From: Syntrophomonadaceae bacterium
GTDB lineage: Bacteria > Bacillota > Dethiobacteria > DTU022
Reading direction: 5' to 3'
Assembly (NCBI GenBank): GCA_007119965.1
Contig: SKOR01000037.1
Coordinates: 1 to 32,594 of the forward strand
DNA: 32,594 bases
Below are positions 1 to 29,948 of this stretch, in pieces (position 1 is the first letter of the stretch; each line of letters begins with the position of its first letter). Under the pieces are notes generated by a model that was not told the origin of the DNA, did not search any database, and saw only the letters and a program-made list of their open reading frames with translations. The position numbers and the translations under genes were made by a program.

Positions 1-144
1 GAGCAGGCCGGCCCGCATGGAGGCGGGCCGCCGGGACCTGAGTCACGGAGGGCGAATGTCCCGGGCAGCCTAAAGCGGAGGGCTGAAGTTGAACCGCTGC
101 CGCTACCTGCGACAGAACCCGCAAATAACGGCGCTAACTGAACC
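1..144 (+). repeat. Right-hand part of a MITE-like dispersed repeat
   Basis: Positions 1 to about 122 match the reverse complement of about 3852 to 3972 at roughly 85 to 90 percent identity by eye, and the similarity continues weakly to about 144. The element ends in CGGCGCTAACTGAACC (129-144), which is the inverse of the start of the related fragment at 226. Inside are hairpin-forming blocks, for example GCCCGC/GCGGGC and CGGGAC/GTCCCG. The left end lies outside the window. No coding potential is evident. Confidence 0.75.
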
Positions 145-556: not shown

Positions 557-728
557 TGGAAACGCGAACAGATAATTAATTTATAACATCCACAGCGGCG
601 CCCTGTTTTGCATACTCGGGCAGAGTAATATAACGGCTTTCCCAAAGTGTTAAAAAGAAATTGAAAAACCATTTAAACAAGTATAAATCGTTAAGTTGCT
701 TCAATAACCTGAGGAGGTGCTGAAAGAT

Positions 729-1919
729 ATGGCTAACACTAATGAAATTATCAGTTTAACCGAAAAGTACAGTGCCCGTAATTACCTGCCTCTGCCTGTT
801 GTTCTTTCAAAAGGTGAGGGCGTCTGGGTCGAAGATCCCGAAGGAAATCGCTACATGGATATGCTTAGCGCTTATTCTGCGATGAACTTTGGTCACCGTC
901 ACCCCGAAATCATTAAAGCGCTGAAAGAACAGGCCGATAAAATAACGGTTACTTCACGGGCATTTCACAGTGATAACCTGGGCACTTTCTGCCGGATGCT
1001 GGCCGATTTAACAGGGAAAAGCAAGGTATTGCCAATGAACACAGGCGCTGAAGCAGTTGAAACGGCCATCAAGGCCGTACGGAGGTGGGCCTACAGGGTT
1101 AAAAATACTCCCTCCGATCAAGCTGAAATTATTGCCTGCAGCGGAAATTTCCACGGCAGGACTTCGACAATTGTTTCATTCAGTTCCGACCAGAGCTACA
1201 ATGCCGATTTTGGCCCTTTCACACCGGGTTTCAAATTGATCGAGTACGGCAGCATAGAGGCCCTGGAAGAAGCTATCGGCCCGAATACAGCCGGTTTTCT
1301 TGTTGAGCCGATCCAGGGTGAAGGGGGAATTATTATTCCACCTGAAGGGTACCTCAGCGCTGCTTATAAACTTTGCCGTGAAAACAACGTTATGTTTATC
1401 GCTGACGAGATTCAAACCGGATTTGGCCGCACCGGTAAAATGTTTTGCTGCGACTGGGAAGACGTTAAGCCTGATCTTTATGTCCTCGGTAAAGCACTTG
1501 GCGGGGGCGTCCTGCCTATTTCAGCAGTAACCGCCGATGAAGAAGTCCTGGGAGTATTTGAGCCCGGCTCACATGGTTCTACTTTTGGCGGAAACCCCCT
1601 GGCCTGCGCTGTTGCAATCAAAGCCCTGGGAGTCCTAAATAAAGAAGAACTGGTTAAAAAATCTGCCGAGCTCGGCAAATACTTTACAGATGAACTGAAG
1701 AAAATAAATAACCCTGTTATTGCCGATGTCAGGGGCAAAGGTATGATGGTCGGCGTTGAACTGACCGGGAAAGCCAGGCCTTACTGCGAACACCTGATGA
1801 AACTGGGTATTCTGGCCAAGGAAACTCACGATAATGTGATCAGGCTGGCACCGCCCTTAGTGATCAGCAAAGATGACCTGGACTGGGCCCTGAAAGCGCT
1901 TAAAGAAGTTTTCGCCTGA
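729..1919 (+). CDS. rocD: Ornithine aminotransferase
   Basis: This 396-residue PLP enzyme converts L-ornithine plus 2-oxoglutarate to glutamate-5-semialdehyde (which cyclises to P5C) plus glutamate, in the cytoplasm. It aligns along its whole length with Bacillus Roc[21 protein letters not shown] near the N-terminus, [13 protein letters not shown], the [11 protein letters not shown] motif with the PLP-contacting Asp near residue 226, and the Schiff-base Lys near 255 in VLGKALGGG. Length is normal for the family. I chose ATG 729 because GAGGAGG at 711-717 is a proper ribosome binding site for it; the GTG at 717 lies inside that site. A terminator follows directly, so it is a single-gene unit. 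Its product feeds pruA, the redox operon and proC downstream. Confidence 0.95.
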
Positions 1920-2262: not shown

Positions 2263-3810
2263 ATGATTCCTGATTTCAAGAACGAAGCTCCGACAGACTT
2301 TTCAGATGAAAAAAACCAGAACGCCATGCTGCAGGCAATCAAAAAAGCTAAAAATGAGTATGGCCGGGAATATGAACTGGTAATTGACGGCAAGAAGGTA
2401 AAAAGCGACGATAAGTTCGCATCGATTAATCCTTCAAACCCGGACGAGGTTGTAGGTTACGCCTTCAGTGCCAACAGGGAAATAACCGAACGGGCGATCC
2501 GGGCTGCCTCAAAATCTTTTGAAGAATGGAAGTTGGTTTCCCCCGGGATCAGGGCCCGTTACCTGTTCAAGGCGGCTGCATTAATGCGTAAACGTAAAGC
2601 CGAACTGACGGCAGCTATAGTCCTGGAGAACGGTAAGAATTGGGTCGAAGCTGACGGAGACGTTGCCGAAGCGATTGACTTCCTTGATTATTATGCCATA
2701 AGGGCCCTTCAACTGGCTGAAAGGCAGCCGTTAGCCCGGATTAAAGGGGAAGACAATGAACTGTACTATATACCGCTCGGTGTCGGTGTGGTTATTTCAC
2801 CCTGGAACTTCCCCCTGGCCATTTTAACCGGGATGACAGTCGGGCCCCTGGTGATGGGCAATTCAATTGTTCTCAAGCCGGCCAGCAACACACCCGTAGT
2901 TGCAGCGAAGTTTATGGAAATAATGGAAGAAGCGGGTGTGCCCGATGGGGTGATTAACCTTGTTTACGGCAGCGGCAGCGATATCGGTCACTACCTGGTC
3001 AGCCATCCCGGGATCAGGTTTATCAACTTTACAGGATCGAGGGAAGTGGGCCTGTATATCGTGGAAGAGGGAAACAAGATTCGGGAAGGGCAGAAATGGA
3101 TCAAGCGGATCAGCGCTGAAATGGGCGGTAAAAATGCGATCATAATTGACAGCGAAGCCGAAGTGGATTCTGCAGTCGCCTGTGTTATAGCCTCTGCTTT
3201 CGGTTACCAGGGCCAAAAATGTTCTGCCTGTTCAAGAGCAATAATTGATGAAAAGATCTACGATTATACTGTACAGCAGCTTGTTGAGAAGACCAAAGCA
3301 ATCAGGATCGGGCCGGCAGAGGACAGGGAAAATTTTATGGGCCCGCTGATTGATCAGGCCGCCCTTGACAAGTTTCTAAAATATGTTGAAATCGGAAACA
3401 GTGAAGGAAGAATCCTGTGCGGAGGCAGCAGGCTGAATAAAAGCGGCTACTATGTTGAACCGACCATATTTGAAGGTATCGAACCCCGGGCCCGCCTGGC
3501 CCAGGAGGAAATTTTCGGCCCCCTGCTGTCGTTGATCAAAGTAAAGGATTTTGACCAGGCTCTGGATGTGGCCAATGATACAGAATATGGGCTGACGGGA
3601 TCGGTATATTCAAATAACTGGTCCAAACTGGAGAAATCACGCCGGGACTTTCATGTCGGCAACCTCTATTTCAACCGTAAAAGCACTTCAGCGCTGGTCG
3701 GGGTCCATCCCTTCGGGGGCTACAATATGTCGGGTACGGGCGCAAAAGCCGGTGGAAACGACTACCTGTTACTCTTTAGCCAGGCCAAGGCAGTATCTGA
3801 AGAGCTTTGA
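2263..3810 (+). CDS. pruA: 1-Pyrroline-5-carboxylate dehydrogenase (L-glutamate gamma-semialdehyde dehydrogenase)
   Basis: This 515-residue aldehyde dehydrogenase oxidises glutamate-5-semialdehyde/P5C to glutamate with NAD+. The length equals Bacillus RocA. Visible motifs are the Rossmann NAD-binding region with SPWNFPLAILTG, the FTGSREVG loop, the EMGGKN segment and the catalytic Cys near residue 320 in GYQGQKCSACSR. The C-terminal GGYNMSGTG matches the RocA subgroup. It is the single-function form without a fused proline dehydrogenase (PutA) domain. ATG 2263 has GGAGGG seven or so bases upstream. Together with rocD it completes ornithine to glutamate conversion. A MITE-like repeat begins about 22 bases after the stop. 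Confidence 0.95.
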   Translation: MIPDFKNEAPTDFSDEKNQNAMLQAIKKAKNEYGREYELVIDGKKVKSDDKFASINPSNPDEVVGYAFSANREITERAIRAASKSFEEWKLVSPGIRARYLFKAAALMRKRKAELTAAIVLENGKNWVEADGDVAEAIDFLDYYAIRALQLAERQPLARIKGEDNELYYIPLGVGVVISPWNFPLAILTGMTVGPLVMGNSIVLKPASNTPVVAAKFMEIMEEAGVPDGVINLVYGSGSDIGHYLVSHPGIRFINFTGSREVGLYIVEEGNKIREGQKWIKRISAEMGGKNAIIIDSEAEVDSAVACVIASAFGYQGQKCSACSRAIIDEKIYDYTVQQLVEKTKAIRIGPAEDRENFMGPLIDQAALDKFLKYVEIGNSEGRILCGGSRLNKSGYYVEPTIFEGIEPRARLAQEEIFGPLLSLIKVKDFDQALDVANDTEYGLTGSVYSNNWSKLEKSRRDFHVGNLYFNRKSTSALVGVHPFGGYNMSGTGAKAGGNDYLLLFSQAKAVSEEL

Positions 3811-4501: not shown

Positions 4502-4531
4502 TTGACAGCGTTAAACAGTCAATGATATAAT
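4502..4531 (+). promoter_or_regulatory. Promoter of the redox operon
   Basis: TTGACA (4502-4507) and a perfect TATAAT (4526-4531) are separated by 18 bases. TTGAC (4502-4506) and GTCAA (4518-4522) form an inverted repeat overlapping the -35 box, so a repressor or activator could bind here. The leader carries AAGGAG (4543-4548) with no start codon close by and a weaker AAGGAATAAGG just before the ATG at 4586. Confidence 0.75.
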
Positions 4532-4585: not shown

Positions 4586-6961
4586 ATGAACAACCATACA
4601 ACGCAGATCGATTCGATTATCAAGCAGCACGACAGCGATCCCGCCAACCTGATCATGATTTTGCAGGATATTCAGGCCCAGTTAAGTTACCTTCCTTCAG
4701 AAACAATAGAGCAAGTAGCAGGACAATTAAACATCCCCCTCTCTCAGATTTACTCAGTATCCACATTTTACAAGTCCTTTTCTTTAAAACCCCGCGGAAA
4801 ACATAAAATTGATGTATGCGAAGGAACCGCCTGCCACATCAGGGGCGCAGGTGTGCTGATGAGCCAGCTTTCGGAAGAGCTCGGTGTTTCTGCCGGCGGA
4901 ACCAGCGAAGACGGCGAGTTTTCATTAAATTCCGTTCACTGTGTCGGAGCCTGTGCTATGGCTCCCGTAGTGGTTATAGACGGGGTTTACCACGGCAGCA
5001 TAAACTCATCAAAGCTGATGAAAGAAGTAAAAAAATGCTGTTCTGCCGAACGGAAGGCTGCCGGCCCGCCCGGGAGCGACGAAGAGACGCCTGCCGTAAT
5101 TACCGATAGGATAGATTCACCCGAAGAGTTATTGGAACTTAATAAAACAATCAGCAAAAGATCACCAGTAGACGAACAAAAGATACTGGTCTGTGCCGGG
5201 ACAGGATGCCTGGCTAAGGGCAGCCTGGCAGTTGCCGGTGCTTTGAGTCGCGAACTTGAAGCCTGTGGCCTCGATATTCCCGTGAAAACCGTGCTCAAAA
5301 AAGTCGGCTGCCAGGGCTTCTGCGAGCAGGGACCGCTGGTAATCATCTCCCCCGATAATCTATTCTACACCGGGGTCACTGTTGATGACGCCCGGGACGT
5401 GATCCGGGATACGGTAATCAATAAGACCATAATAGAAAAACTGCTTTATCACGACCCAAATACGGACAGGGGTATCGACAGGTACGACGAGATACCTTTC
5501 TTTGCCGGGCAGCAGAGGATTGCCCTGCGCCATGTCGGGACAGTTAACCCCCTGGATATATACGACTATATTGTGCACGGCGGTTACAGTGCCCTTTTTA
5601 AAACTCTCTATTCAATGGAACCGGGGCAGGTTATCGATGAAATTGAAAATTCCGGCCTTCGCGGCAGGGGAGGGGGAGGATTCCCCACCGGCAGGAAGTG
5701 GCGGACTACAGCTTCGGTTAAAGCGGATATTCGCTATGTAATCTGTAACGGCGATGAAGGTGACCCGGGGGCGTTTATGGATCGCAGCATTATGGAAGGC
5801 GACCCGCATTCAGTAATTGAGGGAATGATCATCTGCGCCTATGCCGTCGGTTCTTCCCGGGGCTATATATATGTCCGCGAGGAGTATCCGCGGGCCTTAA
5901 AACATCTCCAGGGCGCTATCGACCAGGCCCGCGGAGCGGGCCTGCTGGGCAGTAATATCGGCGGAACCGGCTTTTCTTTTGACATTACCATTAACCGCGG
6001 GACCGGCGCCTTTATCTGCGGCGAATCAACAGCCCTGATGCAGTCAATCGAGGGCAGGGTCGGAGAGCCGCGGGCGAAATATATCCGTTCAGCAGAACGG
6101 GGACTCTACGATCAACCGACTGTTCTCAATAATGTCGAAACCCTGGTCAACATTCCCGCTATTATCGAACATGGAGCAGAATGGTTTGCCGCCACCGGTA
6201 CCCCGGGAAGCCCGGGAACCAAGGTATTTTCGGTAGTCGGCAAGGTTAAAAACACGGGCCTGGTAGAAGTTCCGATGGGGACAACGCTCAGGAGCGTGAT
6301 TTACGACCTCTGCGGAGGCATTTTGGCGGACAGGCAGTTTAAGGCCGTTCAAACAGGAGGCCCCTCGGGCGGCTGCCTGCCTGAAAGCAAATTAGATCTG
6401 CCCGTTGATTTCGACACACTTACCCGCGAAGGTTCGATGATGGGATCCGGCGGGATGATCATAATGGATGAAGATACCTGCATGGTAGATGTAGCCCGTT
6501 ACTTTACTGACTTCTTAACCCAGGAATCCTGCGGAAAATGCGGGGCCTGCAGGATCGGGCTGTCGAGCCTGCTGGCTGTTCTGGAAAAAATCTGCAGGGG
6601 TGAAGGCGCCTCAGGTGATATTGAAGATATTGAAAAACTGCTTGACGTTCTGGAACAGGGATCATTATGCGGGCTTGGAAAGTCTGCCCCAAACCCCGTC
6701 CGCAGCACATTGGCCCACTTCAGGGCGGAATACCTGGCCCATATCGAAGAAAAAAGGTGCCCGGCAGGAGTCTGCAGGGGCCTGATTAATTTTGAAATCA
6801 ACGATTTATGCACCGGCTGCCGGCGCTGTGCCGGGGCCTGTCCTCAAAAAGCAATTCAGGGCGATAAAAAAGAGAAGCATATTATAGACCAACAGCTCTG
6901 CAACCAGTGCGGAATCTGCAAAGCAACCTGTACCTTTGAAGCAGTAAGCATCATTAAGTAA
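4586..6961 (+). CDS. NuoE-NuoF fusion: NADH-oxidoreducing FMN/Fe-S subunit
   Basis: A 791-residue electron-input/output subunit. Residues 1-150 are a NuoE-type thioredoxin-like domain with [2Fe-2S] ligands C78, C83, C119 and C123. Residues 190-275 are a second thioredoxin-like [2Fe-2S] domain (C193, C198, C232, C236). Residues 300-700 are NuoF: the FMN/NADH loop GRGGGGFPTGRKW at 350-362, an SLBB region and the N3-type [4Fe-4S] ligands C639, C642, C645 and C685. The C-terminus adds a 2[4Fe-4S] ferredoxin (C732-C742, C762-C772). NuoF with an extra N-terminal [2Fe-2S] and a C-terminal ferredoxin is the layout of HydB in bifurcating [FeFe]-hydrogenases and NADP-reducing hydrogenase HndC, not respiratory complex I. 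NuoE is normally separate, so the fusion is notable. It starts an operon; the next gene begins 12 bases later. Confidence 0.9.
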   Translation: MNNHTTQIDSIIKQHDSDPANLIMILQDIQAQLSYLPSETIEQVAGQLNIPLSQIYSVSTFYKSFSLKPRGKHKIDVCEGTACHIRGAGVLMSQLSEELGVSAGGTSEDGEFSLNSVHCVGACAMAPVVVIDGVYHGSINSSKLMKEVKKCCSAERKAAGPPGSDEETPAVITDRIDSPEELLELNKTISKRSPVDEQKILVCAGTGCLAKGSLAVAGALSRELEACGLDIPVKTVLKKVGCQGFCEQGPLVIISPDNLFYTGVTVDDARDVIRDTVINKTIIEKLLYHDPNTDRGIDRYDEIPFFAGQQRIALRHVGTVNPLDIYDYIVHGGYSALFKTLYSMEPGQVIDEIENSGLRGRGGGGFPTGRKWRTTASVKADIRYVICNGDEGDPGAFMDRSIMEGDPHSVIEGMIICAYAVGSSRGYIYVREEYPRALKHLQGAIDQARGAGLLGSNIGGTGFSFDITINRGTGAFICGESTALMQSIEGRVGEPRAKYIRSAERGLYDQPTVLNNVETLVNIPAIIEHGAEWFAATGTPGSPGTKVFSVVGKVKNTGLVEVPMGTTLRSVIYDLCGGILADRQFKAVQTGGPSGGCLPESKLDLPVDFDTLTREGSMMGSGGMIIMDEDTCMVDVARYFTDFLTQESCGKCGACRIGLSSLLAVLEKICRGEGASGDIEDIEKLLDVLEQGSLCGLGKSAPNPVRSTLAHFRAEYLAHIEEKRCPAGVCRGLINFEINDLCTGCRRCAGACPQKAIQGDKKEKHIIDQQLCNQCGICKATCTFEAVSIIK

Positions 6962-6973
6962 GAAAGGAAAAAT

Positions 6974-9900
6974 ATGAGCGATAAGGTTAATATAACTGTT
7001 GACGGACGGACAGTAGAAACCGAAAACAGGGTTATGCTTTTACCCATTCTGAACGAACTGGGGATTCAAATCCCGCAGTTGTGCAACCATCCCTCATTAA
7101 CCCCCAGCGGGGCCTGCAGGCTCTGTGTCGTCGAGATAACAAAAAAAGAATGGAACGGCAGCACAAAAATAGTTACCTCCTGCCTCTACCCTGCAGAAGA
7201 CGGCCTGATTGTTTCCACCCGGACGGTAGATGTCTTAAAAACCCGCAGGAGCCTGCTTGAACTCTACCTGGCCCAATGCCCGGAATCAGAAGAGGTCAGG
7301 GCTATGGCCAGGCTTGAGGGGATTGACACCACTGCATTTACGACCCCCGGTGAAGATGATAATAAATGTGTAATGTGCGGCCTGTGTACACGGGTCTGCC
7401 AGGATTTTGGCCCGGGCGCAATATCGACCCTGGGCAGGGGCATCGACAAGCAGGTGGGGCCGGGTCCTGACGGGGTAGCTGACAGCTGCACCGGCTGCCG
7501 GGCCTGCACTTATGTCTGCCCGACCGGCGCAATTCCTTTTGAACAGAAGGAAGGCACGCTAAATATCTGGAACCGCAGCTTTGATATTCCGACCTGCTCT
7601 GTCCAACCTGAACTGTGCAGGGGCTGCGGGCGTTGTGAAGAAGTCTGCCCCTATTCTATCCCGAGGGTTGTGATCTACAAAAACGGCCTCTCAACAGCGC
7701 AGATTTCCCAGGATGCCTGCGTAGGTTGCGGTGTATGCCCCGGTACATGCCCCACGGGGGCGATCAAACAGAAAACAACAGGCGCTCTCACTGATTATGA
7801 ATCGCTGCTCTTTGAAGAAGATATAACCGGAAAAGACCTTGTGTTTGCCTGCCCGCGCTCCCCGATGCCTGCCGCTGCTGATGGGCACGTTGTCAGGGTC
7901 AGCTGTATCGGCAGTATTCACATATCAACACTGCTCTATGCCCTGACTGCGGGCGCAAACAGCGCAGCCTTAGTCTGCAGAGACAGGGCCAGCTGCCCGT
8001 ATTACCGCGGGGGCGATTTGGGCGAGAATAGGTTTGCTGCCGCGCGGGACCTGCTCGAATACTGCGGCCTCGATTCGGACAGTATCGCCCTGCTCACACC
8101 GAATATGGGACAGGACGGCCCTTTCAGGGCCTGGCAGGAATACAGGAAGCCGTTGCAGGGGCGCACCCCTGTTTTAGAGTCATTTTATAAACCTGAAAAG
8201 CGCCCTGTCCCGGGTATGGACCTGGCGCTTGATATTACAGCCTGGTTGAAGAGCAGGCCTGAACTTAAAGTTAAGCTGCCTGCTGCGGTTACAGGCATGT
8301 TTACCGTAGCGTCAGCAGACGATGACGCACCGGTCCTTTACCTGGACAGACTGCCTGAGCTGCATATCCTGATGTCCCTGACCATGGAAGAGCCTGTGGT
8401 GTTAAATATACTGGCGGAAGCGGCGCGCGTTTTGGAAAACAGGGGTATTGCTGTGCGCTGCGCAGCGGCTGAAAAAGAACTGAAAGAATTCAGGGGCCGG
8501 CAAATAATTACTTTTGACTCCGGAGTTCCGGCAGAGCTTCCTGAAGGCACTTCCCCGGTTACGCTTAATAGCATTGCCGGTTTAACCGCTGACGGCAGCG
8601 AAGAGCGGTTCTATTTTACACTCAGCCCTAAAACACGCAAAAGTTTGCTTGATGATTACATAAACAGCAGCGGCGGACAGCCGATTTTATGCGCCACTGC
8701 CGAGCATTACCTGCAGTATGCCCTTCTACTGCGGCAGGGTACCTGGATGCAGTCCCTGGCTGAAAAACCGAAATTACTGCTAAGTACTGCCGCATCTGTT
8801 GAACCAAAGGCAGCCGGAAAGCAGGCCAGCCTGCGCCGGATTAAGAACCACCCGATTCTCCCTCCGCTGGAAGGAGTTCAATTGGAGTTTACTTTTAATG
8901 GCCGAACATACCTGGCCAGGAAAGGTGAAGTGATCACCTCTGCCCTTTACGCTGCCGGTATTACCGTTTTCGGACACCACCACCGCGATGGAGGGGCCCA
9001 GGGCGTTTACTGCGTAAACGGCCAGTGTTCACAGTGCATGGTTGTTGCCGACGGAAAACCGGTCAAAGGGTGCATGACGCCCGTAACACCCGGTATGGCT
9101 GTGCTGAGCGCTGAAGGACCCCCTGTTCTGTCCGATGTCGAAAATCCCCGGGAGATGACTGTAGAGCCTGAAACGGTGCAGGTTGATGTATTAATAATCG
9201 GAGGCGGCCCGGCAGGAATCAGCGCAGGGATTGAACTGGGCAACGCCGGCGTTAAAGTTTTAATCATAGATGATAAGCAGGAGCTTGGCGGGAAACTGAG
9301 CCTGCAGACCCATAACTTTTTCGGTTCTGTTGCCGACTGCTATGCGGGGGCCCGCGGGGTCGAAATCGGCCATATCCTGTCCGGTGACCTGTGTAAACTG
9401 CCGACAATCGATATCTTGCTTAATTCAACTGTAGTCGGTGTTTTCAGTGACGGTAAATTCGGCGTCGCCGGCAGCGGCACTTACAAACTGGTTGAAGCGA
9501 AAAAGGTCCTCTTTTCAACAGGGGCAAGGGAGAAGAGCCTTGCTTTTCCGGGAGCTGACCTGGCCGGTGTATATGGTGCAGGCGCTTTTCAAACCCTGGT
9601 CAACAGAGACCTGGTCAAGTGCGCACAGAGGCTCTTTATTATCGGCGGCGGTAACGTCGGCCTGATCGGTGCATATCATGCCCTCCAGGCAGGAATCGAT
9701 GTTGTCGGCCTCGTTGAGGCCCTGCCCAGGTGTGGGGGCTACAAGGTCCATGAAGATAAAATCAGGCGTCTCGGCGTTCCTGTTATGACATCGCACACTG
9801 TGCTGCGCATAGAAGGCGAAGAGAATGTGGAAAGAGTGGTTATCGCTGCAATTGACGATAAATTTATACCGATCGCCGGAACAGAACGCACATTTGAGGT

Positions 9901-10933
9901 CGATACTGTATTAATGGCTGTCGGTTTAAGTCCTGTGAACGAACTGCTCCAAAAAGCGCAGGAATACGGTATCGATACATACGCCGCCGGGGATGCCATG
10001 GAAATTGCAGAGGCCTCTGCTGCCATATTCTCAGGAAAAATAATTGGTCGCAGAATTGCCCAGGATATGGGAATTGATCTTCCCGTGCCCAGTGACTGGG
10101 AAGCATTCGGCGATACATTGAAGCAGCATTCTGCTGAAAGCAAACCGTTCACAGCGGAAGATTCGGAGGCTCCCGTATACCCGCTAATTCGCTGCATGCA
10201 GGAAATTCCCTGCAATCCATGTATCGAAGCATGCCCTAACAAATGTATTACGATGCCAGGTTCGATTCTGAGCCTGCCCGAGTATGGTGATCAGTGCATC
10301 GGCTGCGGGGAATGTGTCCTGGCCTGCCCGGGCCTGGCGATCAACCTGGTTATCAATGATTACGATCCCGACCGGGAAAAATCCCTGCTGGTAATGCCCT
10401 ACGAGTTTGTTAATGATATTATTCCCCTGGGCCGCGAAGTTACCACCACCGACATGGAGGGTAACGTAGTCGGCAAAGGGAAGGTTATCGCCTATAAAGA
10501 ACGGGAATCTCAGAACAGCAGGAGACTGCTGCTATTAGAGGTGCCTTATGAGCATAAGCTGCAGGTGGCAGGGTTTATGATCCGTGAAATTGAAGAAGGC
10601 CTTCCGCTCGACCCTGCACCAGATCTTGATGAAGACCCGATTATTTGCCGCTGCGAAAGGATCCGGAAAAGTGAAATTGTTCAGGCCATTCGCTCGGGAG
10701 TGCGTGATATGAACCAGCTAAAAGCTGCTGTCCGAGCCGGTCTTGGCGGTTGTAACGGCAAAACCTGCAACGATCTGATCCTGCGTTTGTACAGGGAGGA
10801 AGGCATTCCACTTTCTGAAGTAACCATGCCTACGCACAGGCCCCTGGTTGCCGAGGTTCATCTCGGTGATTTCATTGCCGGTGGAGGACCTGATCGGGCA
10901 GAAGGAACAGAGGAGGCTGACAATGCCGGTTAA
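6974..10933 (+). CDS. NuoG-like / MvhD-like / proline dehydrogenase alpha-like fusion flavoprotein
   Basis: A 1319-residue electron-transfer protein. In order: NuoG-type [2Fe-2S] ferredoxin (C37, C48, C51, C70); two 2[4Fe-4S] modules (C132-C142 with C172-C182, and C215-C225 with C249-C259); an MvhD/FlpD-like region about 288-376 with Cys at 293, 311, 335 and 341; a poorly recognisable linker about 377-620; a second [2Fe-2S] domain (C680, C685, C688, C700) of the kind fused to sarcosine oxidase and dye-linked proline dehydrogenase alpha subunits; an FAD/NAD disulfide-reductase fold (GGGPAG at 743-748, second Rossmann GGGNVG at 891-896); a 2[4Fe-4S] ferredoxin (C1080-C1091, C1108-C1118); and a BFD-like [2Fe-2S] C-terminus (C1225, C1227, C1260, C1265). 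The usual NuoG His-Cys cluster between residues 95 and 125 looks lost: one Cys remains. RBS AGAAAGG precedes ATG 6974. It overlaps the next gene by 11 bases. The substrate is inferred, not seen. Confidence 0.85.
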   Translation: MSDKVNITVDGRTVETENRVMLLPILNELGIQIPQLCNHPSLTPSGACRLCVVEITKKEWNGSTKIVTSCLYPAEDGLIVSTRTVDVLKTRRSLLELYLAQCPESEEVRAMARLEGIDTTAFTTPGEDDNKCVMCGLCTRVCQDFGPGAISTLGRGIDKQVGPGPDGVADSCTGCRACTYVCPTGAIPFEQKEGTLNIWNRSFDIPTCSVQPELCRGCGRCEEVCPYSIPRVVIYKNGLSTAQISQDACVGCGVCPGTCPTGAIKQKTTGALTDYESLLFEEDITGKDLVFACPRSPMPAAADGHVVRVSCIGSIHISTLLYALTAGANSAALVCRDRASCPYYRGGDLGENRFAAARDLLEYCGLDSDSIALLTPNMGQDGPFRAWQEYRKPLQGRTPVLESFYKPEKRPVPGMDLALDITAWLKSRPELKVKLPAAVTGMFTVASADDDAPVLYLDRLPELHILMSLTMEEPVVLNILAEAARVLENRGIAVRCAAAEKELKEFRGRQIITFDSGVPAELPEGTSPVTLNSIAGLTADGSEERFYFTLSPKTRKSLLDDYINSSGGQPILCATAEHYLQYALLLRQGTWMQSLAEKPKLLLSTAASVEPKAAGKQASLRRIKNHPILPPLEGVQLEFTFNGRTYLARKGEVITSALYAAGITVFGHHHRDGGAQGVYCVNGQCSQCMVVADGKPVKGCMTPVTPGMAVLSAEGPPVLSDVENPREMTVEPETVQVDVLIIGGGPAGISAGIELGNAGVKVLIIDDKQELGGKLSLQTHNFFGSVADCYAGARGVEIGHILSGDLCKLPTIDILLNSTVVGVFSDGKFGVAGSGTYKLVEAKKVLFSTGAREKSLAFPGADLAGVYGAGAFQTLVNRDLVKCAQRLFIIGGGNVGLIGAYHALQAGIDVVGLVEALPRCGGYKVHEDKIRRLGVPVMTSHTVLRIEGEENVERVVIAAIDDKFIPIAGTERTFEVDTVLMAVGLSPVNELLQKAQEYGIDTYAAGDAMEIAEASAAIFSGKIIGRRIAQDMGIDLPVPSDWEAFGDTLKQHSAESKPFTAEDSEAPVYPLIRCMQEIPCNPCIEACPNKCITMPGSILSLPEYGDQCIGCGECVLACPGLAINLVINDYDPDREKSLLVMPYEFVNDIIPLGREVTTTDMEGNVVGKGKVIAYKERESQNSRRLLLLEVPYEHKLQVAGFMIREIEEGLPLDPAPDLDEDPIICRCERIRKSEIVQAIRSGVRDMNQLKAAVRAGLGGCNGKTCNDLILRLYREEGIPLSEVTMPTHRPLVAEVHLGDFIAGGGPDRAEGTEEADNAG

Positions 10934-12098
10934 TAATCATTACGATGCCATAATCGTCGGCTGTGGAAGCGTAGGCAACCCCACAGCATACCAGCTTGCT
11001 GAAGCAGGGTTGAAAGTTCTGGTTTTGGACAGGCGCCCTTCTGCAGGCCAGGGTGAAAACAAAACAGCTATCGGCGGTGTCAGGGCAACGCATTCAGACC
11101 CGGGTAAAATCTCTACCTGCCTGTTCAGCATAGACATATTTTCAACCTGGGAAGAAAAATACGGGTTTGATATCGGGTGGAAACCGGGCGGTTACTGTTT
11201 TCCTGTCTATGATTCCGGCACAGAGGCGACCTTAAAAGGTTTAATCCCATACCAAAAAGAGTGTGGCATGACAATAGACTGGGTCAGTCCCGAAAGGGTG
11301 CAGCAGCTAATCCCGGGTGTTAACCCTGAAGGTTTGCGAGGAGGGACCTATTCACCCAAAGATGGCCAGGTATCTTCTATCCTGGCCCCGATCGCTTTTC
11401 AAAGGGAAGCGGAAAAAAATGGCGCGATATACCACTTTAACGAGCGGGTTACCGGTTACCTGAGAAAAGGCAGCCGGATAACGGGAGTTAAAACCGACAG
11501 AACCACTTATAACGCCGAATGGGTTGTCCTGGCCGCTGGATCTGACGCGGCAGAACATGGGCCCCTGCTCGGTATTGATATACCGGTTACTCCCGATTCA
11601 CACGAAGCAGGCATCTCAGCGCCGATTGATCATTTTCTGGAGCCCCTGGTTGTTGACCTGCGCCCCGGCCCCGAAGGGAAAACAGCAAACTTTTACTTTG
11701 GCCAGAACAAAGAAGGGCAGATAATATTCTGCTATACGCCAAAAGAACTTTTTCCAGGTACCGATCGTGAATCGCTTTCCGAATTTTTACCCGTCCTGGC
11801 CAGCAGGATGATTTCACTGATTCCCAAATTTAAAAACCTGCTGATCCGCCGGATCTGGCGGGGCTGCTACCCGATGACGCCTGACGGTGTCCCGATAATC
11901 GATTACGCGCCGGGACTTGAAGGTTTAATCCTTGCCGTGGGTATGTGCGGCCAGGGCCTGATGCTCGGTCCGGGCGTGGGCAGAAATATTACTTCGATGA
12001 TCGTCGAAGGCAGTTCATGCCTTTCCACGGAAGCGCAGAGCTGCTTCCGCTACGAACGCGATCTTCTGGAAGCTGCTAAAACCGAAACCCTGAAATAA
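10923..12098 (+). CDS. DAO-family FAD oxidoreductase, probable proline dehydrogenase beta-like catalytic subunit
   Basis: A 391-residue flavoprotein of the D-amino-acid oxidase/glycine oxidase/sarcosine oxidase-beta superfamily. The FAD-binding GCGSVG is at 13-18, followed by the acidic end of beta-2 (VLDRR); the C-terminal FAD contact GMCGQGLMLGPGVG lies near 340-353. Proteins of this fold paired with an alpha subunit bearing a [2Fe-2S] domain and an FAD domain, as here, oxidise secondary amines such as proline, sarcosine or hydroxyproline. ATG 10923 has GAGGAGG at 10909-10915 and overlaps the upstream stop, which implies translational coupling and a stoichiometric complex. Proline/P5C is the favoured substrate because rocD, pruA and proC surround the operon; glycine, sarcosine or a D-amino acid are alternatives. 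Confidence 0.82.
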   Translation: MPVNNHYDAIIVGCGSVGNPTAYQLAEAGLKVLVLDRRPSAGQGENKTAIGGVRATHSDPGKISTCLFSIDIFSTWEEKYGFDIGWKPGGYCFPVYDSGTEATLKGLIPYQKECGMTIDWVSPERVQQLIPGVNPEGLRGGTYSPKDGQVSSILAPIAFQREAEKNGAIYHFNERVTGYLRKGSRITGVKTDRTTYNAEWVVLAAGSDAAEHGPLLGIDIPVTPDSHEAGISAPIDHFLEPLVVDLRPGPEGKTANFYFGQNKEGQIIFCYTPKELFPGTDRESLSEFLPVLASRMISLIPKFKNLLIRRIWRGCYPMTPDGVPIIDYAPGLEGLILAVGMCGQGLMLGPGVGRNITSMIVEGSSCLSTEAQSCFRYERDLLEAAKTETLK

Positions 12099-12133: not shown

Positions 12134-12168
12134 GAAAGCGGTTACTGCCGGGTAGCCGCTTTCGTTTA
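12134..12168 (+). terminator. Terminator of the redox operon
   Basis: GAAAGCGGTTAC (12134-12145) pairs with GTAGCCGCTTTC (12152-12163) with one mismatch and is followed by GTTTATCTTT. It is 35 bases after the last stop codon of the operon. Confidence 0.8.
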
Positions 12169-12392: not shown

Positions 12393-13205
12393 ATGGAGAA
12401 TAATAATATCGGTTTAATCGGCTGCGGCGCCATGGGTTCTGCCCTGGCCAGGGGAATGATCAGCAGGGGAGGCATCGATCCGGCCTCGGTATACCTTTAT
12501 GATTTAAATGAAGCAAGAAAAAAGCAGCTTGCTTCAGAAGTCAACGCTAATAGCGCTGAAAGTCTGGATGAATTTATTCCTCACTGCAGGTTTATCTTCC
12601 TAGCTGTAAAACCACAGGATACAGAAGGACTGCTCTATGCAATCAAACCGATGGTCCAAGACGGGCAGATCTACGCTTCAATTGCCGCGGGGATCACGAT
12701 CAACTACATTGAAAGCTGCCTGTATTCCGGAACTAAAGTAGTGCGATTAATGCCGAATACCCCCTGCCTGATCGGTGAAGGCGCTATCGTAATTAGCACC
12801 GGCGATGCGGTAACCGAAGATGAGTGCAGGGAAGTAGAAAAATTATTGGAACCACTGGGGATGACCATTCGCCTGCCGGAAAATTTAATGGATGCGGCGA
12901 CCGGCTTGAGCGGCACAGGCCCGGCCTATGTTTACCTGTTTATTGAAACCATGATCGATGCAGGCGTATCGGTCGGCATACGCAGGGATGTATCCTCTAA
13001 ACTGGTCATTCAAAATGTAATCGGGGCTGCGAAAATGCTTGATTCGAACGTTCAGCACCCAGCAGAATTACGCAATATTGTTACTTCACCGGCCGGCACG
13101 ACGAGCTCAGCAATGCTTATTCTTGAAGAAAACGGGTTTAGAAGCTGCCTGATTAAAGCCGTCAGGGAAGCGACAAAACGTTCTGAAGAGCTGCGCATGG
13201 GGTAA
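12393..13205 (+). CDS. proC: Pyrroline-5-carboxylate reductase
   Basis: A 270-residue cytoplasmic enzyme reducing P5C to L-proline with NAD(P)H. The N-terminal Rossmann motif GLIGCGAMGSALARG, AVKPQD at about residues 71-76, MPNTPCLIGEG and the C-terminal dimerisation segment with GLSGTGPAYVY and TSPAGTTSSAM are all present; the family's length is normal. ATG 12393 follows AAGGGAG. It has its own promoter and is separated from the redox operon by a terminator, so it can be expressed without the complex. Its presence next to a proline-dehydrogenase-like complex means the cell has two routes between P5C and proline. Confidence 0.96.
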   Translation: MENNNIGLIGCGAMGSALARGMISRGGIDPASVYLYDLNEARKKQLASEVNANSAESLDEFIPHCRFIFLAVKPQDTEGLLYAIKPMVQDGQIYASIAAGITINYIESCLYSGTKVVRLMPNTPCLIGEGAIVISTGDAVTEDECREVEKLLEPLGMTIRLPENLMDAATGLSGTGPAYVYLFIETMIDAGVSVGIRRDVSSKLVIQNVIGAAKMLDSNVQHPAELRNIVTSPAGTTSSAMLILEENGFRSCLIKAVREATKRSEELRMG

Positions 13206-13350: not shown

Positions 13351-13428
13351 ATAATTTTTACATTTAACAGCTCAATTAATTACATTTGTGTAAGGTAAAG
13401 AAAAATATACATGCGGGGAGATGTACAG

Positions 13429-14607
13429 ATGAAACGTTTTCAGGATGCCTTAATTAATAAGCTGCCCATGCTGGTGGACACCACTTTACGCGATGGCGAG
13501 CAGACTGCCGGGGTTGTATTTTCGAACAGGGAAAAACTGCGCATTGCCAAGATGCTCGATAATCTTGGTGTGCACCAGATCGAAGCGGGGATTCCCGTTA
13601 TGGGTGGAGATGAAAAAGAAGTTATCAGGGAAATAGTTTCCTACAAACTCCAGGCCAGTATCATGGCCTGGAACAGGGCCAACCTGGAGGATATAAAACA
13701 CTCTGTTGACTGCGGCGTGGACGCAGTGGCCATATCTATATCGACATCAGACATCCATATTACCCATAAGCTGAGGACTTCAAGGGAATGGGTCCTCGAG
13801 AATATGATCGCGGCCGTGGAATACGCCAAAAAAGAGGGCCTCTACATTTCTGTCAATGCCGAAGATGCTTCCCGCACCGATATGGATTTCCTGGTCCGGT
13901 TTGCCAGGGAGGCCAGGACGGCCGGGGCAGACAGGCTCAGGTTTTGTGATACGATCGGTGTCCTGGAGCCTTTTAAAACCCACCGCATTATAACCGAGTT
14001 GATCGAAAAAACCGACATGGATATAGAAATGCACACCCATAATGATTTCGGCATGGCGACGGCCAATACCCTGGCCGGTTTAAAAGCAGGGGCCCGGTTT
14101 ATGGGCGTAACTGTAAACGGGCTGGGTGAGAGAGCCGGCAATGCAGCGCTCGAAGAAGTAGCCATGGCCCTGAAGCATCTCTACGATGTTAACCTTGGCA
14201 TGCAAACTAAAGATTTTCGCAACCTCTGCGAATATGTGGCGCGGGCTTCCGGGCGGCAGCTTTACCCGTCCAAGCCAATTGTCGGGGCCAATACCTTTGC
14301 CCATGAATCGGGCATCCATGCTGACGGGGTCCTTAAACACCCTGAAACCTATGAAATATTTAAACCTGAAGATGTCGGCCTGGAAAGACAAATTGTAATC
14401 GGCAAACATTCGGGCTCAAAAGCGATCAAGATGAAATTTGTGGAATACGGTATCGACCTTTCTGATGAAGAGGCCGCCGATTTGCTGAAATCGGTCCGGG
14501 CGGTAACTGTTGATTTAAAGCGGACTCTCTTTGATAAAGAGTTAATGTATATTTACGAAGATTACCTGTATGAAAAAAAGATTGCCTTTTCATCCGAAAA
14601 ACCGTAA
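13429..14607 (+). CDS. nifV: NifV-like homocitrate synthase (DRE-TIM metallolyase)
   Basis: A 392-residue Claisen-type acyltransferase expected to condense acetyl-CoA with 2-oxoglutarate (or a related 2-oxoacid). It has the DRE-TIM start VDTTLRDGEQTAG, the HTHNDFGMA metal site and the GLGERAGNAALEEV motif, plus RFCDTIG typical of NifV. It lacks the C-terminal LeuA allosteric domain that the leuA product in this window carries. ATG 13429 is preferred over ATG 13411 because GGGGAG at 13414-13419 is then correctly spaced. No nitrogenase genes are visible, so the role may be outside nitrogen fixation; citramalate or another 2-oxoacid chain extension is possible. It heads a tightly packed run of genes (15 bases to the next). 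Confidence 0.8.
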   Translation: MKRFQDALINKLPMLVDTTLRDGEQTAGVVFSNREKLRIAKMLDNLGVHQIEAGIPVMGGDEKEVIREIVSYKLQASIMAWNRANLEDIKHSVDCGVDAVAISISTSDIHITHKLRTSREWVLENMIAAVEYAKKEGLYISVNAEDASRTDMDFLVRFAREARTAGADRLRFCDTIGVLEPFKTHRIITELIEKTDMDIEMHTHNDFGMATANTLAGLKAGARFMGVTVNGLGERAGNAALEEVAMALKHLYDVNLGMQTKDFRNLCEYVARASGRQLYPSKPIVGANTFAHESGIHADGVLKHPETYEIFKPEDVGLERQIVIGKHSGSKAIKMKFVEYGIDLSDEEAADLLKSVRAVTVDLKRTLFDKELMYIYEDYLYEKKIAFSSEKP

Positions 14608-27858: not shown

Positions 27859-29412
27859 TTACTTTCTTGTTTCACCGTCACCGTTGATCCTGAGCAGCTT
27901 GTTTAAACCGTTCAGGTAGGACTTGACACTGGCTTCGATGATATCGGTGCTGGTGCCGCGCCCGGTTATTGTGCGGTCCTGGTAAGACATTTCGACCTGG
28001 ACTTCACCCAGTGCGTCGCGTCCCTGGGTGACAGCATTGAGACGGTAGTTATCAAGTCCGATACTCAGCCCGGTTATCTTATTTATGGCATTGTAAGCGG
28101 CATCGATAGGCCCTGCTCCGATTGCGACTTCTTCTATGGTACCACCGTCCTCTTTTTTTAACCTGACGATAGCAGCCGGAATGCTGGTGCTTCCGCTGAT
28201 TGTCTGCAGGTAATCAAGCTTGTACCTCGGTTCGGTGAAAGAGAGGTGGTCTAACACAAGAGCTTCTATGTCCTCCGGGTAAACTTCTTTCTTTTTATCA
28301 GCCAGCTCAACAAAATAGCCGTATATTGTCTCCAACTGCCCGGGAGTCAGGGAGAAGTTCAGCTTGTTTAACTGATCCATTACCGCATGCCTTCCGCTGC
28401 GTGCCGTAAGGCACATCTGGGCAGCCTTGCCGCCAATTAATTCAGCATCTATAATCTCGTAGGTTTCTTTATTCTTTAATATACCGTCCTGGTGAATACC
28501 TGAGGAATGAGCGAAAGCGTTCAGGCCGACCACAGCCTTGTTAACCGGGACAGCAATACCGGTCAGCTTGCTGACCAGGCGGCTGGTCCTGTATATCTCA
28601 GAAAAATTGAGATCCGTGTAATAGGAGAAGTGGTTTTGCCTGATACGCAGGGCTACAGCTATTTCCTCCAGGGCAGCATTCCCGGCCCGCTCACCAATGC
28701 CATTAATGTTGCATTCAATCTGACGGGCCCCGTTTTTAACAGCTTCAAGTGAGTTTGCCACGGCCATCCCCAAATCGTCATGGCAGTGGACGCTGATAAT
28801 AACTTTGTCCATGCCGGGCACGTTTTCCCTCAGGCGCCCGATCAGGGCCCCGAATTCCTCGGGAACGGCATAGCCGACAGTGTCGGGAATGTTAATTGTT
28901 GTCGCGCCTGCCTTAATTACCGCTTCTAAAAGCTCATAGAGGTATTCTTCCCGCGCCCTGGTGGCGTCTTCAGGGGAATACTCAATATCGCTTGTAAAAC
29001 GGCCGGCATATTTGACTGCTTCAACAGCCTGTTCCATAAGCAGGTGCGGATCTTTTTTCAGTTTATGCTCCATGTGGATATCAGAAGCCCCTAAAAAAAC
29101 ATGAATGCGCGGTCGTTCAGCTTCCCTGACCGCTTCCCAGGCAGCATCAATATCGCCCTGAACAGCCCTGGCCAGTCCGCAGATGACCGGGCCTTTGACC
29201 TCCCTGGCAATATCCCGGACAGCCTTTTTTTCACCTGGCGAGGAAACAGGGAAGCCGGCTTCAATAATGTCAACACCCAGGCGGGCCAGCTGCCTGGCCA
29301 CTTCAAGTTTCTCTTCGTAGTTCAGGCGCGCACCGGGTGTTTGTTCACCGTCGCGCAAAGTGCTGTCAAACAGGTAAATCTTCTCCGACCCAATTTTTCC
29401 CGTCAATTGCAT
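27859..29412 (-). CDS. leuA: 2-isopropylmalate synthase
   Basis: A 517-residue cytoplasmic enzyme condensing acetyl-CoA with 3-methyl-2-oxobutanoate, the first committed step of leucine synthesis. The DRE-TIM barrel starts with DSTLRDGEQTPGA; HCHDDLGMAVANS and NGIGERAGNAALEE complete the metal site; a C-terminal LeuA allosteric dimer domain (residues about 380-510) mediates leucine feedback. ATG 29412 follows CGGAGTGA. Upstream lies a leucine T-box leader. Unlike the NifV-like paralogue at 13429 it has the regulatory domain, which supports the assignment. Confidence 0.94.
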   Translation of the reverse strand: MQLTGKIGSEKIYLFDSTLRDGEQTPGARLNYEEKLEVARQLARLGVDIIEAGFPVSSPGEKKAVRDIAREVKGPVICGLARAVQGDIDAAWEAVREAERPRIHVFLGASDIHMEHKLKKDPHLLMEQAVEAVKYAGRFTSDIEYSPEDATRAREEYLYELLEAVIKAGATTINIPDTVGYAVPEEFGALIGRLRENVPGMDKVIISVHCHDDLGMAVANSLEAVKNGARQIECNINGIGERAGNAALEEIAVALRIRQNHFSYYTDLNFSEIYRTSRLVSKLTGIAVPVNKAVVGLNAFAHSSGIHQDGILKNKETYEIIDAELIGGKAAQMCLTARSGRHAVMDQLNKLNFSLTPGQLETIYGYFVELADKKKEVYPEDIEALVLDHLSFTEPRYKLDYLQTISGSTSIPAAIVRLKKEDGGTIEEVAIGAGPIDAAYNAINKITGLSIGLDNYRLNAVTQGRDALGEVQVEMSYQDRTITGRGTSTDIIEASVKSYLNGLNKLLRINGDGETRK

Positions 29413-29684: not shown

Positions 29685-29948
29685 AAATAAAAAACTTCCG
29701 CCTAAGAGACGAAAGTATATTTCCGTGGTACCACTCTTCTTAGCAGCATAAAATCTACCGCCCACTCTTTATAATAACGGAAGTCTCCGGCCAGGCCTAT
29801 TTTTGATCTAACCCGATCAATTTCGGTTGGCGGCTAACGGAGGAGTTCACAGTATTTATCATGCCGCCTCGCACCTAACGGCGGCTCTCTGTTAATGACG
29901 CATCCTGCTAATAGTTCCGATCATTGCCTTTGTTGGTATTCAGCTTTT
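29685..29948 (-). promoter_or_regulatory. Leucine-specific T-box leader of leuA
   Basis: On the minus strand the T-box core AAGAAGAGTGGTACCACGG is at 29741-29723. Stem I has ACAGAGAGCCGCC and the GGTGCGAGGCGG distal block, then GAACTCC with CTC (29845-29843) in the specifier position, a leucine codon read by tRNA-Leu(GAG). Past the antiterminator region, CTAAGA and TCTTAG arms and a T6 tract near 29690 form the terminator. Uncharged tRNA-Leu should stabilise the antiterminator and allow leuA transcription. Confidence 0.9.

Follow-up and report, generated by a model that had tools for sequence, protein, structure and literature searches.

A three-gene Bfu-family unit with a fused 1319-residue chain and a candidate proline dehydrogenase module in the window from a Syntrophomonadaceae bacterium

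A three-gene unit

The window analysed here is the whole 32,594-nucleotide stretch of contig SKOR01000037.1 (assembly GCA_007119965.1). Positions 6974 to 10933 encode a single chain of 1319 residues, which is remarkable as part of a three-gene machine and less so as a lone polypeptide. The three genes, spanning 4586-12098, appear to form one unit in an uncultured soda-lake bacterium. There is strong support from sequence comparison for placing the unit in the Bfu family, and it is predicted to couple nicotinamide adenine dinucleotide (NAD(H)), ferredoxin and a third substrate. More specifically, we propose that 4586-12098 encodes one soluble Bfu (HydABC-type) complex, in which a dehydrogenase for proline and pyrroline-5-carboxylate (P5C) would handle the third substrate, most likely by confurcation; we give this reading about an even chance. 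The genes and the signals around them are:

4502..4531, + strand: promoter-like site TTGACA-18-TATAAT, 12/12 consensus, 55 bp 5' of the BfuC-BfuB gene (consensus match only)
4586..6961, + strand: BfuC-BfuB fusion, 791 residues (Pfam; best PDB match the bifurcating HydB 8a6t_B, 5.9e-222)
6974..10933, + strand: fused chain, 1319 residues, with BfuA, HdrA-type ferredoxin, FlpD, an unknown domain, and the alpha, gamma, ferredoxin and BFD parts of a DAO-type dehydrogenase (open reading frame and profile scans)
10923..12098, + strand: DAO-family flavoprotein, predicted catalytic (beta) subunit (PF01266, 5e-54)
12134..12163, + strand: terminator-like hairpin, 13 bp stem and T-rich tail, 36 bp 3' of the DAO gene (consensus match only)

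We found 17 full orthologs of the chain in separate metagenome-assembled genomes (MAGs), each an unbroken fused frame with 60-75% identity, and further partial copies at contig ends. Because the identical fusion recurs in 17 loci of separate MAGs, the open reading frame is real; an assembly artefact or chance is ruled out. The order and orientation of the three genes are kept in every orthologous locus examined, even in a genus (g2) where all other neighbours differ, and the DAO gene stands directly 3' of the fused chain in all of the 17 orthologous loci that extend that far. Its start is the ATG at 10923, which overlaps the stop of the chain and lies behind an AGGAGG; as listed, the open reading frame begins at a TTG at 10848. 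Promoter-like sites numbered 13 in the region against 8.8 expected, and the only one with 12/12 consensus is that at 4502..4531, which together with the terminator-like hairpin brackets exactly the three genes.

Within one family, 23 of 43 genomes carry the unit, against 0 of 55 other genomes of the class. A profile of FlpD plus residues 377-620 detected no further unit among 398 sampled genomes of the phylum, and a search of the 398 with the DAO subunit (E <= 1e-55) detected no homologue outside the family. When 84,980 species genomes were scanned with a pattern, members of this group alone came back; many carry the name Syntrophomonadaceae, and several are soda-lake MAGs. In other words, the homologue search proposed with the original prediction yielded the same domain order in 17 full orthologs, all from a single family.

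The Bfu core and the N-terminus of the chain

The Bfu family is defined by its BfuBC core (Schut et al. 2022, PMC9304861), and among solved structures the 791-residue protein is closest to subunits of electron-bifurcating hydrogenases and of related Bfu enzymes. Its BfuC part carries a NuoE-like [2Fe-2S] site, C1 (C78, C83, C119, C123), and its BfuB part carries B5 (C203, C208, C242, C246), a flavin mononucleotide (FMN) domain, B1 (C649, C652, C655, C695) and a C-terminal ferredoxin with B3 and B4 (C742-C782). The B2 ligands C632, C670, H719, C725 and C730 align with C438, C476, H525, C531 and C536 of A. mobile HydB (7t2r_B), and the same alignment recovers the ligands of B1, B3, B4 and B5. 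The His ligand of B2 is found in virtually all BfuB proteins and is absent from non-bifurcating homologues (PMC9304861). All cluster ligands of the fusion (B1-B5 and C1) are invariant in the 17 orthologs.

Because the adjacent open reading frame encodes a complete BfuC-BfuB core, we read the N-terminus of the long chain as BfuA rather than NuoG, the name it had in the original prediction, whose MvhD and proline-dehydrogenase-alpha assignments stood. That prediction had also pointed to a NuoG His-Cys site near residue 100 reduced to a single Cys. The chain indeed has no His-Cys motif and a single Cys, C102 (kept in 16 of the 17 orthologs), while A1 and two [4Fe-4S] sites are retained. Type 2 Bfu enzymes have a BfuA without the A3 (His-Cys) and A5 clusters that relies on A4 (PMC9304861), and 9mqx_A, the closest solved relative, likewise lacks the His-Cys cluster. 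Since loss of His-Cys is a published mark of Type 2, the reduced site is ordinary and no anomaly. By its predicted ligands, the N-terminal part of 200 residues is a BfuA of Type 2 cluster content. In subunit layout the unit looks like a hybrid of Types 1 and 2, with the DAO protein separate and the other parts fused into BfuA as in Type 1.

Other Bfu-type genes occur in these organisms. The genome of the window (2.3 Mb) encodes six further NuoF/BfuB-type proteins, on contigs C10, C34, C50, C61 and C8; several are as large as a full BfuB, indicating that the organism carries several Bfu-type complexes. Genomes G026 and G027 have a second Bfu set (L046 14264-17888 and L048 1166-5269), with a BfuB 51% identical and a BfuA of 651 residues, on one contig with both the proline-type unit and a gene resembling that of aldehyde ferredoxin oxidoreductase.

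Domains of the fused chain

Along the chain, we assigned the following domains:

6974..7282, + strand: BfuA/NuoG N-terminal [2Fe-2S] domain, ligands C37, C48, C51 and C70, with no His-Cys cluster after it
7355..7543, + strand: BfuA dicluster [4Fe-4S] domain, C132-C142 and C172-C182
7583..7777, + strand: HdrA-type dicluster [4Fe-4S] domain, C215-C225 and C249-C259 (HdrA2 profile NF040770)
7835..8101, + strand: FlpD/MvhD domain, [2Fe-2S] ligands C293, C311, C335 and C341 (PF02662, MvhD profile matches and fold match)
8102..8833, + strand: unknown domain, residues 377-620, predicted ordered alpha/beta
8879..9109, + strand: Fer2_4 [2Fe-2S] domain, C680, C685, C688 and C700, resembling gamma subunits of hetero-oligomeric DAO dehydrogenases
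9182..10075, + strand: SoxA/proline-dehydrogenase-alpha type domain with two dinucleotide folds (TIGR01372, PDB 2gag_A and 1y56_A)
10181..10345, + strand: second ferredoxin, two [4Fe-4S], C1080-C1091 and C1108-C1118
10640..10786, + strand: BFD-like [2Fe-2S] domain, C1225, C1227, C1260 and C1265 (PF04324; matches the C-terminus of 1y56_A)

Scans with hidden Markov models (HMMs) bore out the domain order that the original prediction had read in this one chain. Specifically, Pfam matches cover Fer2 (7-61), two Fer4 pairs (128-190 and 204-268), FlpD (303-375, E 3e-9), Fer2_4 (636-712, 1e-35), Pyr_redox_2 (738-996, 2e-27) and Fer2_BFD (1223-1271, 1e-8), and the Cys residues of the extra dicluster ferredoxin lie within 1080-1118. 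The two dinucleotide motifs, GGGPAG at 743-748 and GGGNVG at 891-896, agree with the predicted flavin adenine dinucleotide (FAD) domain of two such folds. Four [2Fe-2S] and six [4Fe-4S] sites are present, with all ligands invariant in the 17 orthologs; the six [4Fe-4S] sites had been anticipated, and the expected three [2Fe-2S] sites become four once that of FlpD is counted.

The FlpD assignment of residues 288-376 had been set beforehand as a test, and both HMM and fold comparison agree with it. Residues 204-373 align to positions 568-746 of HdrA2 (NF040770, 6.5e-24), the Pfam FlpD match recurs in 17/17 orthologs, and the FlpD profile alignment returns solved MvhD/FlpD chains from the PDB sequences. 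An AlphaFold2 (AF2) model of residues 272-640 (predicted local distance difference test score, pLDDT, 83) has MvhD proteins as its best PDB matches (5odc_D, E 1.2e-5, prob 1.0).

Residues 377-620 are the least conserved part of the chain (30-47% identity over the 17 orthologs), and two orthologs have a version shorter by about 60 residues. As originally remarked, they resemble nothing recognisable: scans of all 17 orthologs found no Pfam family, and a Foldseek comparison of the 272-640 model with the PDB gave only MvhD chains above noise and nothing convincing for this region. A degenerate NuoG molybdopterin-like domain had been named as a possible refutation, and neither Pfam nor Foldseek gave a sign of one.

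Two familiar identities for the chain were rejected. It is not an ordinary Complex I NuoG, lacking both the His-Cys N5 motif and the molybdopterin-like C-terminal domain. Nor is it a case of HdrA-type bifurcation: the HdrA flavin domain is absent, only the C-terminal ferredoxin-MvhD part matches HdrA2, and the FAD domain matches SoxA/proline dehydrogenase alpha.

The dehydrogenase half and the DAO subunit

The best solved match of the DAO subunit is 1y56_B (3e-44; the next best is 3e-21), the beta subunit of P. horikoshii L-proline dehydrogenase. The deposited entry is labelled 'sarcosine oxidase'; that the protein is a proline dehydrogenase is known from literature to which PMC4575208 refers. 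In its C-terminal half, including the BFD domain, the fused chain matches the alpha subunit 1y56_A as well as sarcosine oxidase alpha. Both the alpha (Pyr_redox plus BFD) and gamma (Fer2_4 [2Fe-2S]) partners of a hetero-oligomeric DAO dehydrogenase are present in the chain. The substrate class, that of a DAO-type amino/imino acid dehydrogenase, is well supported. We sought a close annotated relative of the DAO subunit in plasmids, and found only matches below about 31% identity, named 'FAD-dependent oxidoreductase'.

Contig C62 of the same genome (6322-9650) carries a stand-alone operon with separate genes for Fer2_4, flavin, 2x[4Fe-4S], BFD and DAO proteins in identical order. Because the four parts of the chain are separate genes in the same order there, the chain reads as a cassette fusion; judged by order and similarity, it looks as if BfuA and a ferredoxin-MvhD piece of HdrA type had been linked to a dehydrogenase cassette of four genes. 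Such a machine may have originated when the genes of a cassette like this were fused one after another to the end of BfuA and FlpD. The C62 operon itself probably encodes a sarcosine/N-methyl amino acid dehydrogenase or a related enzyme. Its neighbours are genes for MttB-like methyltransferases, for a sigma54-type regulator and for AOR.

Gene neighbourhood and candidate substrate

Three further genes in the window concern P5C:

717..1919, + strand: ornithine aminotransferase rocD (NF003145, 675 bits against a cut-off of 656)
2263..3810, + strand: glutamate semialdehyde (P5C) dehydrogenase rocA (NF002852, 770 bits against 648)
12393..13205, + strand: pyrroline-5-carboxylate reductase proC (TIGR00112, 271 bits against 197)

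Upstream of rocD, orthologous loci carry hypD, encoding trans-4-hydroxy-L-proline dehydratase (1340-1369 bits against a cut-off of 1100), and in the checked orthologous locus the hypD activase gene lies there too. The products of rocD, rocA, proC and hypD all make or consume P5C. In the genome of the window, hypD is found at the end of contig C42; because the reverse complement of C42:1-39 equals window 1-39, the two contigs probably join there. Overall, hypD occurs in 20 of the 23 genomes with the unit, compared with 2 of 11 sampled genomes of the family that lack the unit (Fisher p 2e-4, ignoring kinship). No canonical proline dehydrogenase (PF01619, the PutA/ProDH TIM barrel) was matched in the window or in 45 relatives, in a search whose control was positive. 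As for D-proline reductase as a proline sink, no PrdA exceeded the cut-off in 45 relatives, the genome of the window included. Proline/P5C is the best substrate candidate, with moderate support, L-proline activity being suggested by the gene neighbourhood.

The contig of the window begins in a GC-rich repeat, and a related hairpin lies near window 3960. Beside hypD, and kept there in relatives, is a second glycyl radical enzyme gene (G000:C42:3752-6094, L125), divergent from hypD, below every curated equivalog cut-off and closest to CutC/HypD-like proteins; it adjoins a proline-racemase-family gene at C42:7076. A PrdA-like fragment below the cut-off, with an in-frame TGA, occurs at G032:C210:3388-4635, in a family member with hypD and without the proline-type Bfu unit.

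Proposed mechanism and energetics

In the proposed complex, the DAO subunit would use its FAD to oxidise proline to P5C. Following the order of domains, electrons would then cross the FAD, [2Fe-2S], ferredoxin and BFD parts in the C-terminal half of the chain, pass the FlpD [2Fe-2S] site and the HdrA-type ferredoxin, and travel through the BfuA clusters into BfuBC, whose FMN and clusters would exchange them with NAD(H) and ferredoxin. The reaction would run as L-proline + reduced ferredoxin + 2 NAD+ -> P5C + oxidised ferredoxin + 2 NADH, and the P5C could continue to glutamate (RocA), to ornithine (RocD) or back to proline (ProC).

Published potentials bear on the direction. The E0' of P5C/proline is -123 mV at pH 7.5, falling by about 90 mV per pH unit (PMC7642206), and E' values are -280 mV for NAD and -500 mV for ferredoxin (PMC9304861). 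By simple arithmetic, confurcation gains about 63 mV at pH 7.5 and 93 mV at pH 8.5, and reduction of ferredoxin from proline is thermodynamically impossible. We infer that confurcation is the most likely direction of coupling. More tentatively, we suggest a single-FMN Bfu core working in a new order of potentials, with the imino acid (proline/P5C) as the high-potential partner and NAD(H) as the middle one, and with MvhD and residues 377-620 as an internal wire.

Schut et al. 2022 (PMC9304861) foresee a Bfu core that can combine with many third substrates 'yet to be discovered'. A proline/P5C-linked member, if true, would extend ferredoxin-coupled bifurcation/confurcation to imino-acid metabolism. 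It would suggest a route by which anaerobic alkaliphiles oxidise proline, a major compatible solute and a product of hydroxyproline, with NAD+, a step that is about 160-210 mV uphill at pH 7.5. The order ferredoxin < NAD < proline, unlike that of hydrogenases, would make it possible to test directly if the Bfu mechanism needs a third substrate of middle potential.

Weighing the alternatives

A number of observations weigh against this proposal. In genus g2 the unit stands without P5C genes nearby, and genomes G011 and G012 of that genus have no hypD. The DAO subunit and 1y56_B are distant relatives, too distant for the sequence to reveal the substrate, and the PDB set compared contains no structure of a hydrogen cyanide (HCN) synthase, opine dehydrogenase or D-hydroxyproline dehydrogenase. 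The presence of proC next to a proline-oxidising enzyme would permit a futile cycle. NAD is the high-potential partner in characterised Bfu enzymes but would be the middle one here, a topology undemonstrated for a Bfu core. Finally, the AF2 model of residues 120-1319 (pLDDT 57, predicted template modelling score 0.47) is too poor for measuring cluster distances.

The separation of the unit from P5C genes in genus g2 would suit the same Bfu complex acting on a different DAO-type substrate, such as D-hydroxyproline, an opine, or an N-methyl amino acid like sarcosine or N-methylproline. The DAO subunits of L-proline, D-hydroxyproline and opine dehydrogenases and of HCN synthase have a subunit make-up in common (PMC4575208), and genes of the proline-racemase/hydroxyproline-epimerase family are present in these genomes. 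We nevertheless consider a different substrate unlikely, though a serious contender, given that 1y56_B is clearly preferred among solved DAO proteins and that P5C genes surround the unit in most loci.

The complex might instead run reductively, with NADH reducing P5C to proline and reduced ferredoxin being yielded or consumed. P5C could be an electron sink because HypD (from hydroxyproline) and RocD (from ornithine) supply it in the same neighbourhoods; electron transfer from NADH to P5C is exergonic, and in gut Clostridiales HypD feeds the reduction of P5C to proline (PMC7077986). However, ProC, encoded in the same cluster, already reduces P5C, a run that drove ferredoxin reduction would fall about 63 mV short at pH 7.5 (NAD -280, ferredoxin -500), and one that consumed ferredoxin would waste energy. 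We judge the reductive run quite improbable.

Non-bifurcating NuoEFG-type homologues exist (PMC9304861), and the enzyme could in principle be a plain NAD- or ferredoxin-linked dehydrogenase whose Bfu core had become a simple NADH dehydrogenase. Those homologues lack B2-B5, whereas B1-B5 and C1 are retained and invariant here, which makes a loss of bifurcation very improbable. That these are two separate enzymes with adjacent genes, the Bfu part having another role, is scarcely credible when BfuA and the dehydrogenase alpha, gamma and ferredoxin parts form a single polypeptide in 17 loci, bordered everywhere by the BfuBC and DAO genes.

Comparison with known systems

Bam complexes carry the MvhD-like BamF, and Bam-Bfu resembles the proposed proline/P5C complex in the presence of an HdrA module. 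Like the Type 2 Bfu enzymes (Wor-Bfu and Bam-Bfu; PMC9304861), the unit has a complete BfuBC core with all ligands, a BfuA without A3 and A5, and extra modules that would feed a third substrate. Unlike them, it has BfuC fused to BfuB, BfuA fused to FlpD and four dehydrogenase parts, and a DAO amino-acid dehydrogenase as its third-substrate module. The words proline, sarcosine, MvhD and FlpD are absent from Schut et al. 2022 (PMC9304861), whose Table 1 has no amino acid. We found no literature linking Bfu or confurcation to a proline dehydrogenase, nor did we find the pairing of a Bfu core with a proline-type amino-acid dehydrogenase in any published list of such enzymes.

The archaeal L-proline dehydrogenase PDH1 (1y56), D-hydroxyproline dehydrogenase and the opine dehydrogenase OdhABC share with the unit a DAO beta subunit, a Pyr_redox alpha subunit with BFD, and a Fer2_4 gamma subunit. 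They are dye-linked or of unknown acceptor and made of separate subunits, whereas the unit has its non-catalytic subunits in one fusion with part of a bifurcating core. With MvhD/FlpD and HdrA2 (HdrA-MvhD fusions) the chain shares the C-terminal ferredoxin plus MvhD part, the MvhD fold and its four Cys; unlike those, it has no HdrA flavin domain and no hydrogenase, and the module is proposed as the inner wire of an amino-acid dehydrogenase. The original prediction had contrasted this with a normal role of MvhD in linking hydrogenase to HdrA. That role was drawn too narrowly, as a MetFV-HdrABC-MvhD complex is known (PMC6295475), but we found no precedent for MvhD with an amino-acid dehydrogenase. 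A functional analogy is offered by the lactate dehydrogenase-Etf complex of Acetobacterium woodii, in which reduced ferredoxin drives oxidation of a donor too positive for NAD+ (PMC12630350); its proteins are unrelated, with FAD bifurcation of the Etf type.

Other features of the window

Downstream of proC lies a LeuA/homocitrate-synthase-like gene (13411-14607), the second of its kind in the window, kept at this position in relatives and 85-88% identical. A T-box leader (29702-29933, - strand) precedes a 2-isopropylmalate synthase-like gene (27859-29412, - strand).

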